Shown one piece after another: positions 15,101 to 18,100 of a stretch of 64,000 nucleotides of DNA. The notes under the pieces are model-generated. The model worked only from the letters and a program-made list of their open reading frames with translations, was not told the origin of the DNA and did no database searches. Numbering within the stretch: the stretch's first letter is position 1; every line of letters starts with the position of its first letter. Source of the DNA: Neoarius graeffei (lineage: Eukaryota > Chordata > Actinopteri > Siluriformes > Ariidae); contig NC_083577.1 in NCBI RefSeq assembly GCF_027579695.1, positions 43,626,198 through 43,690,197 on the forward strand. The letters run 5' to 3'. A program made the translations under genes and the position numbers.

Positions 15101-18100
15101 TTCAGTTCAGGAATACAATCTACAGACAGAAGGAAGGTTTTGCCATGGGAGACCCACTATCAGCCATCATGTGCGGCTTTTTCATGGAGGATCTGGAGCA
15201 GAAAGCACTCACTACAATACCAGCGGAATACAGGCCAGCACTCTGGAAACGGTATGTGGACGACATATTGGAAAAAGTAAAGAGGGGACACACTCAACAA
15301 CTCACCGACCATCTCAACACCATAGACAATACCGGCAATATAAAATTCACACATGAAGAAGAAACGGAGCAGTCAATAGCATTTTTGGATTTAAAAATAC
15401 AACACACAGAAGATGGGGACATCAAAATAAAAGTACACAGAAAACCCACACATACCGACCAATATTTAAACTGGACTTCCGAACACCCCATAATGCACAA
15501 AATATCCATAGTTAGAACATTACATGAACGCACAGCAATAATTACAGATCCACAGGACAAAGAACAGGAGGAACAACATATACAACACGCACTGAAGGCA
15601 TGTCAATATCCACAATGGGCAATATCCAAAGGGGCGGAACAGGTTAAGAACAACAAAACACAGAAGAAAGAGAAAAAACAAACTAACAAACAAGAACACA
15701 GGGGAGTAGTTACATTACCATACATCAGGGGAATAACTGAACGCATTCAAAGAGTAATGAGGAAACACAATGTTAACACACCTGTCAAACCACACACAAC
15801 ACTCCATCAGATCCTGGTTCATCCCAAAGACAGAATACATCCGGACAACAGATGCAACACCATATATGAGATTCCATGTAAATTATGCAATAAAACTTAC
15901 ATCGGGGAGACAGGAAGGAGTTTCAACACAAGAAAAAATGAACATAAGAAAGAGTGCGAAAAGGAGACAGCTACAAGACAAACCCGAACAATAAAAGAAA
16001 AGGCACAACAGGAAAATTATAAGTCAGCTATAACAGATCACTGTAAAAGGGAAAACCACATTATGGACTGGGGGAATGCCAGAGTCATCCGCACAGAAGA
16101 TAACAAACATCAGCGCTGGATCAGGGAGGCCATAGAGATCCGTAAGCGAAGCCCGAGGACCATCAACCGGGATGAGGGAGCATACATGCTCTCCCATACC
16201 TGGAGTCACATCTTGCAGGGGACGAACAGACAGTATAAGGCGTGACCGACCTGTCAAACCAGACAGGAAGGCCACGCCTTCAGAAACAGCAGCTGATAAA
16301 AGATGCGTCACCAATTAACATCCGGTGACACTCTGAGGAAGACGGAAGTTGTACGTCGAAACATGTCAGGTAAACAAACCCAAAAATTAGATGTCTGATA
16401 AAAAAGAAAAAAAAAAAAAAACTAACTACACTTACTTCTCGTTCACCAAATTGATTGGTCAAGTGGCATTCCAAGAGCGCTGATATTTAGTATAATGGCA
16501 CTGCTACATTTCCACCATGCCAATCCAGCATATCCCATAATTTCCAAATGTATTTATTAAATTTTATATCATGCACAGAAGGCTAAATTTGTGTCCACAA
16601 CTTAATGAATATACGAAACCACAACATACTCCAACCCCAAATCAGAAAAAGTTGGGATGATATGGAAAATGCAAATTAAAAAATGGAAAACAATTTATTT
16701 TAAAATTTACTTTGATTTATAGTTCATTGCTGACAGTATGAAGCCAAGATACTTCATGTTTTGTCTGGTCAACTTCATTTCATTTGCTAATATACATCCA
16801 TTCCTGTGTGTCAAGCCTGCAACATGTTACAAAATAAATAAATAAATAAAACAAACAAATAGACAGGGACAAATTAGAGCTAGTAATGAGGGAAAACAAT
16901 TAAATAATAATCTGATTTGAAACAGGTGATGTCAACAGGTGACTGCAATCATGATTTGGTACAAAAGCAGTATCCAGGAAAGGCCTAGTCTGTGAGGAGC
17001 AAAGGTGGGTAGGGGATCTCCAGTTTGTTAACAAACGTGGAAGACAATTATTGAAATGATCAAATATAATGTTCCTCAAAGAAAAATAGGAAGGTATTTG
17101 AATATTTCACTCTGTGTTGCATAATATTAAATGATTCAAGGAACCTGGAGGAATTTTGATGTATAAAGGGCAAGGGCACAAGCCCAAGTTGAGCACCCAT
17201 GATCCCTCATACAGCACTGCATCAAGATCCATCATCCCTCTATTGCTGATATAACCACATGCACTCAGGATTACTCTGGCAAACCTTTGTCAAGCAGTAC
17301 AATATGGAGTTACATCCACAAATGCCAGTTAAAACTTTACAGTACACAAAGGTAGCCTTACGTTTGCTATGTCCAGAAGAACCATCAATTTCTTTGGCCT
17401 ATGAGGCATCTGGGATAGACCATCACACAGTAGAAATGTGTATTGTAGTCAGACAAATCAGTATTCCAGGTCAATTTTGGAATAAATGGATGCTGTGTGA
17501 TCCGGATCAAAGACGAAAAGGACCATCCAGACTGTTACCAGCAACAAGTCCAAAAGCCAGGGGATGTTATGGTCTGGGGTTTTGTCAGTAGCCTTGGCAA
17601 AGGTAACTTATAATTCTTTGAAAGGCAGCATTAATGCAGAAAACTACATTGAGATTTTGGAAGAGCATGTGCTGCCTTCAAGCCAGCATCTTTTCCAGGG
17701 ATATTTCAACAAGACAATGCAAAACCACATTCTGCACACGCAAAGGCATGACTATGGAAGAAGAGGGTGCCTGTCTCCTCTGTCCCCAAAAGAGAATGTG
17801 TGGTGAATTTTTGAGAATGTGTCAAGAGTTGGTGCATGCACATTCTGTGCGACGTACTTCCAGGTTTCCTAGTTGTTTGCGACGAGTCTTTTTTCCGTGA
17901 GTGTTGGCATTAATCACTAATCTTTTTTTTATTTTCTCGACAAATAATTTTCCAGTATCCTTTTCATTTTTTATAGTGCTTTCACTTTTGCTTTCCTTTT
18001 TCCACATTTAAAAAAAAAAATTTTCAGAAGAATGCCAAGACCGGAAGCTTTCTGGTTTTTCTCCTCCTGTGTAAAAACCACAAGCGGAGGCCATCCACAT

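Follow-up and report, generated by a model that had tools for sequence, protein, structure and literature searches.

A truncated Penelope-like insertion in Neoarius graeffei

The window analysed here is a stretch of 64,000 nucleotides of the Neoarius graeffei genome (NC_083577.1, positions 43,626,198 to 43,690,197). It holds a Penelope-like element (PLE) that is inserted between 13-bp target-site duplications (TSDs). The features of the insertion are as follows.

13904..13916, no strand: left TSD (ACACTTACTTCTC), with an identical 13-mer at 16428-16440
13917..14093, minus strand: inverted 3'-end fragment, consisting of the pseudo-LTR (pLTR) and a long tail to CGAAA(GA), delimited by the inverted repeat and alignment
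14007..14041, minus strand: second hammerhead-like core, antisense to the ORF, with a damaged stem II (GACA/CGTT)
14095..16245, plus strand: 5'-truncated PLE ORF with a reverse transcriptase (RT; RVT_1 stretch) and a C-terminal GIY-YIG endonuclease, no internal stop
16246..16428, plus strand: 3' pLTR with a short tail ending at CTAACTA, delimited by repeats and tail comparison
16428..16440, no strand: right TSD, whose first A is common to the element end

The pLTR, the inverted 5' pLTR, the tail and the TSD, which are features of PLEs, are all present. The original prediction of a PLE is borne out by the Pfam matches of the window ORF to RVT_1 (E 6e-06) and GIY-YIG (E 9.3e-04), both of which lie just below the gathering score. 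The element had also been described as intact, which it is not. The sister copy L010 has a full ORF of 828 codons that starts at ATGAACGTAATCGAAAG downstream of the pLTR, and in comparison with it the window copy is without 112 N-terminal codons. The direct 5' pLTR is missing as well, and the inverted 3'-end fragment stands in its place. The tail of this fragment corresponds to the beginning of the ORF in full-length copies. The window insertion is 5'-truncated and has a 3' end on either side. The open reading frame as called covers 14053-16245 and has 730 codons, of which approximately the first 14 are read from the inverted repeat. The inverted arms match at 98% across 136 nt. The shared part of their alignment shows three transitions, of which stem II has two, and a difference in A-tract length.

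Genome-wide, 62 ORF copies drawn from 10,684 first-look candidates were scored, and all were 98-100% identical at the amino acid level. A frame of 830 aa is open in 45 of these 62 copies, compared with 763 in the window copy. Three PLE copies with identical scores lie about 49.6 kb apart at G000:C3 (70178812, 70228444, and 70278079), representing a recent large tandem duplication or an assembly repeat. No tandem repeats were found at 13000-17500 of the window. A search of viral_contigs confirmed no relatives, and a search of solved structures returned three telomerase RT sequences only (E 0.35). Elsewhere in the window, the minus strand at 11691-13022 carries two broken ORFs, which we take to resemble the endonuclease part of a LINE.

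The hammerhead-like core and its relatives in the genome

The core in the 3' pLTR and the elements around it, all on the plus strand, are the following.

16307..16329: GTCACC/GGTGAC hairpin just 5' of the core, read from the sequence
16328..16332: 5' strand of helix I (ACACT)
16333..16367: hammerhead core with CTGAGGA, the extra A, stem II, GAAA, the palindromic helix III ACATGT, and C17
16340..16340: extra A between A9 and stem II, common to the PLE motifs found by two genome patterns
16341..16357: stem II GACG/CGTC with a 9-nt loop
16361..16366: ACATGT, the self-complementary helix III, with a 2-nt loop in the monomer and 6 bp in the dimer
16368..16371: 3' strand of helix I (AGGT), with the predicted cut between 16367 and 16368

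Direct reading of CTGAGGA (16333-16339), GACG (16341-16344), CGTC (16354-16357), GAAA (16358-16361), CATG (16362-16365), and TC (16366-16367) confirms that hammerhead-like letters stand in the right order, as had been claimed. C3 U4 G5 A6 N7 G8 A9, G12 A13 A14, the pair A15.1-U16.1, and H17 all follow in order at 16333-16367. The earlier cautions about an extra A and a weak helix I are both correct, the former being A16340 and the latter a helix of two pairs, a bulge, and two more pairs. The free position N7 is occupied by G, T, A, and C among the pattern matches, in which the conserved letters are partly imposed by the patterns themselves.

Chance resemblance in one repeat has in its favor that a loose pattern, CTGANGAN{8,30}GAAAC, is expected about once in the window. 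Taken alone, this pattern does no better than chance, because its two matches stand against 0.97 expected and 24 of 100 shuffles reach two. The near-exact 35-mer occurs twice in the window, at 16333-16367 (+) and 14007-14041 (-), against 0 expected. Genome-wide counts against mirrored controls rule out a chance origin, to which we give practically no weight. The family pattern CTGANGAAGNCN{4,24}GNYGAAACATGTC has 2798 matches (1382 on the plus and 1416 on the minus strand) and none on either strand of its control. A second pattern, GAAACGTC, has 3862 (1972 + 1890) versus 10 (5 + 5), and two PLE families have the motif in their pLTRs.

The matches of the family pattern that were listed (the first ones) and fetched sort into types A, to which the window belongs, B, C, and D; these types are labels on those matches. 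The hairpin just 5' of the window core overlaps helix I in its outer half, with which it competes. The same hairpin recurs in flanks of types B and D (for example L039 (-) and L052), and L055 of type C has it as GTCAC/GTGAC. When the second pair of stem II was altered in the pattern, five matches resulted, L069-L073. These are rare repeats with a compact core of 28-29 nt; L069-L072 look like one repeat and L073 like another. In L069-L071, helix I has five perfect pairs and stem II two.

Among the matches listed for the GAAACGTC pattern (the start of the 3862), nearly all belong to one family, E. Its representative L074 carries two direct motifs 2511 nt apart together with broken RT and GIY-YIG frames. 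In Pfam, family E matches RVT_1 above the gathering score (2e-11) and GIY-YIG below it (7.1e-04), and the RT of L074 is 43% identical to that of the window over 380 aa. Family E is a second PLE family with its own version of the motif in both pLTRs. Direct tandem motifs in the pLTRs are found in L010, a full-length copy in which they are 2691 nt apart, in L015, and in L074, and the pair in the window is inverted. The flanks of A and E (90 nt on the 5' side of the core and 50 nt on its 3' side) align like shuffles, with z of 0.3 and 0.1, and the cores align with z of 3.9. The motif is therefore shared where the remaining pLTR is not.

The stems differ between these families and remain paired. 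Stem II reads GACG/CGTC in type A, GACGG/CCGTC in type C, and GCCTTTC/GAGAGGC in family E; in the helix II comparison, GACG/CGTC stands against GCCT/AGGY and GTTT/AGAT. Within E, the seven successive pairs of this stem are intact in 30, 28, 27, 30, 30, 29, and 26 of 30 cores, respectively; this set comprises the distinct 34-nt cores among 34 distinct strings in the places listed, four strings of a different length having been set aside. Helix I is TA,CG in types A-D, AT,AT,GC in E, and AT,CG,AT,CG,GC in L069. Its first two pairs thus switch type between families, and it is weak in A. It is absent at pairs 2-4 in L073, which keeps one of the first three pairs. Stem II has only two pairs in L069 and L072. 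Helix III is palindromic in both of its forms, ACATGT and ACGT.

These pairings were tabulated for six representatives (A, C, two E, L069, and L073), a small sample picked by type. The table was registered by hand because MAFFT misaligned the E family, and four rows were left out, namely near-duplicates and the damaged left arm. Helix I pairs are present in 15 of 18 cells and helix II pairs in 22 of 24, counts that are reached by 8 and 4 of 720 permutations, respectively. Comparison between the PLE families of the genome shows stem II and helix I changing in a paired manner.

The same letters could also form a plain hairpin, in which CUGA pairs with UCAG and stem II is stacked inside. Bound by a protein, such a hairpin would resemble a hammerhead only superficially. 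The minimum free energy (MFE) folds of the A and E cores use such pairing, with runs of 6 bp in E and of 4 bp in both A and C. In F (L069), however, no run exceeds 3, though F keeps a 5-bp hammerhead helix I; G (L073) has a run of 4 but no clear helix I. A plain hairpin does not predict the GAAA, the palindrome, or the paired 2.x-1.x changes. We consider this explanation quite improbable.

Since stem II and helix I of E differ yet pair, and the flanks cannot be aligned, the motif is classed as a minimal type I hammerhead variant. From its sequence, it is very probably a minimal type I hammerhead-ribozyme variant of the PLE pLTR, with a palindromic helix III. Excerpts of the literature report PLEs with minimal hammerheads (PMC6155905, PMC7761336), which may act as dimers (PMC7761336, PMC6466107), in agreement with what the original prediction stated of them. 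The minimal type I PLE variants of Cervera and De la Pena (2014) and of Lunse, Weinberg and Breaker (2017) are known to us via citing papers (PMC7761336, PMC6466107, PMC6155905). As far as these describe them, the variants share with the present motif the type I order, tandem motifs in the pLTRs, a nearly absent helix III, a palindrome suited to dimers, and a PLE host. The motifs of this genome differ from them in the extra A, and the window differs in the inversion of its second motif. It is most likely that the motif works like, and belongs with, these minimal PLE hammerheads in print (PMC6155905, PMC7761336, PMC6466107).

Folding, the extra A, and catalytic activity

In the whole window, no Rfam model, of whatever kind, attained its gathering score. 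The lack of a hammerhead score, an outcome named beforehand as speaking against the prediction, was observed in part: none appeared on the window, on its two arms, or on eleven related loci scanned as single copies, at E up to 10 for the arms and loci. RF00163 has no match in the whole host genome, but it is also silent in all 14 control genomes, which makes that search uninformative. The absent score counts against a canonical hammerhead, in scans of arms and loci that were run with no positive control of a PLE-type motif.

Computed energies, which leave out tertiary contacts and magnesium, favor the free fold over the hammerhead fold in all five cores tried. For the window monomer, the hammerhead fold is at -3.5 and the MFE at -8.4 kcal/mol, and for the window dimer the hammerhead and free folds are at -10.8 and -22.1 kcal/mol. 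The corresponding dimer values (kcal/mol) are -0.6 and -17.1 for the left arm, -16.4 and -31.4 for C, and -16.1 and -29.1 for E. The gap is narrowest in the L069 dimer, with -16.6 versus -17.6 kcal/mol. A transcript of the window copy would hold one sense motif and its antisense. The two arms pair at a computed -239.5 kcal/mol, so the motif would be buried in the duplex unless folding is fast. With its two motifs in opposite orientation, that copy cannot form a tandem dimer in cis.

A type I hammerhead has no insertion between A9 and helix II, whereas the window motif has A16340 at this point. The consensus core as defined in the excerpted part of PMC3088659 likewise has no nucleotide at this position. 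Because of this insertion, the motif is filed as a variant of the PLE group and not as a canonical type I hammerhead. Both genome patterns required the extra A, so a fair test is the count obtained with that A removed, for which cores with G at 10.1 and two named 3' halves were searched. The first pattern then has 0 matches versus 1 in the mirrored control, and the second, with any stem, has 48 versus 37. Two of the few matched strings listed (CTGAGGAGGCC...) resemble family E in which G has replaced the extra A. The same cores with no extra A are at chance level, as far as those with G at 10.1 are concerned.

The chance-level counts of cores lacking the extra A, as well as the missing Rfam score, would also be expected of a hammerhead descendant that has lost catalysis in this lineage. 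The extra A and the weak helix I would then make the motif a structural relic, retained because its region serves the element in RNA binding, promotion, or RT initiation. This rival concerns activity and is compatible with the assignment to the PLE hammerhead family. Against it, two PLE families whose RTs are 43% identical and whose flanks cannot be aligned have retained the core letters, the two helices, and a palindromic helix III, and a protein-binding site has no obvious need of paired changes in helix I. We regard loss of catalysis as possible but doubtful. To judge from the sequences, it is evenly balanced whether the hammerhead family still cleaves.

Insertion ends and the proposed place of cleavage

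The ends of insertions record how far their RNA templates reached. Thirty loci (L009-L038) were sampled by ORF, and the 3' pLTR holds a motif match in all of them, although L027 is without two letters of the palindrome. The 50 tail ends that these loci provide, 28 of them long and 22 short, are all downstream of the cut. The main-copy 5' ends are upstream of the cut in 20 of the 30 loci, and the remaining 10 copies are truncated downstream of it. L010 served as the reference for 5' ends, and positions beyond about -139 are approximate; 13 loci have their 5' ends at -134 to -146. No main-copy 5' end is at +1 in the 30 loci, and three are within 7 nt of the cut (L026, L027, and L035), which speaks for the catalytically inert relic.

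The tail has 608 matches in the full genome. In a further set, 108 alignments cover the tail, of which 14 stop at the edge of the locus and 38 reach the end of the reference. Among the other 56, 12 end at -134 to -139 and nine within -7 to +7. Two of these nine come from L086, which is the same place as L026. After de-duplication, seven near-cut ends remain, from L013, L026, L027, L035, and L038, none of them at +1. There may be a mild excess of ends near the cut in this sample, which still contains other overlapping loci. In L026, near 4067, an inverted junction forms a perfect palindrome (TGACATGTTAACATGTCA) whose center is close to the helix III region; it looks as though two cDNAs had ended and met there.

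The position of the ends, downstream of the 3' cut in every tail and upstream of the 5' cut in 20 of 30 loci, means that most templates were uncut or re-joined. The retrotransposed RNAs were uncut, or cut and re-joined, at the 3' motif, and likewise at the 5' motif in 20 of the 30 loci. These ends fit the in vitro result for PAc (Poseidon), a PLE of Anolis carolinensis. In the excerpts of that study (PMC11167929), its hammerhead cleaves only with added protein and is dispensable for insertion in vitro, mutants being without effect.

Insertions with two opposed 3' ends, including the window copy with its ends at 13917 and 16428, carry one long tail (after CGAAAGA) and one short tail. The short tails have no long-tail match, and those listed end at or near CTAACTA. 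This holds in 20 of 20 loci with exactly one end per orientation; the other 10 of the 30 loci have one end only. The strict rule of one tail of each kind points to different priming sites on the two target strands. The full-length copies L010, L015, L025, and L036 have their start near TATAAGGCGTGACC, which is about 136 nt from the hammerhead cut on its 5' side. This start is inside the last codons of the preceding ORF and beside a GGCGTG/CACGCC hairpin, and is perhaps the start of the RNA.

For the hammerhead reading, the following working may be proposed. Read-through RNA of a full-length copy would contain two direct motifs about 2.7 kb apart. The ACAUGU palindromes of the two motifs, on one RNA or on two, would pair to give a helix III of 6 bp, and helix I (AGGU with A-C-(A)-C-U) would form across the pair. 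The RNA would be cut after C17 (C16367), perhaps only with the help of the element's own protein. In the window copy, which has lost the tandem, pairing with another RNA would be the sole option left. Cutting would separate the RT start region, which is downstream of the cut, from the mRNA, and it would therefore spend templates rather than make them. As insertions run through the site uncut (or re-joined), cutting is not a template-making step. A more specific proposal, which we advance tentatively and think rather unlikely, is that the extra A enlarges the core and is kept across two PLE families in a functional variant, the cutting of which is conditional on a dimer or a protein and is held off in template RNA, given that the motifs are found uncut in insertions.

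Several known systems resemble this family in part, here as described in excerpts of the respective papers. PAc, too, is a PLE whose hammerhead lies close to the junction of pLTR and ORF, with RT initiating internally downstream of the motif and with tailed insertions (PMC11167929). The ORF of PAc begins at stem II, whereas that of the window family starts downstream of the pLTR poly-A and CTAACTA, and cleavage has been measured for PAc, whereas the motif of the window family is known from its letters. Penelope elements of Adineta vaga also have an inverted pLTR upstream of a direct one, with an optional 31-bp tail on one inverted pLTR and TSDs of 8-10 bp; hammerheads are not the subject of that paper, and the term HHR does not occur in it (PMC3846280). 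The hammerheads of amphibian satellites and retrozymes share the short helix III and cleave better as dimers, but they belong to small non-coding tandem repeats, unlike the PLE pLTR (PMC7229834).

What role hammerheads play in PLEs has been described as a mystery (PMC7761336). The hundreds of young copies in this one genome make that role testable, and the shared extra A is a precise structural feature that is open to test.
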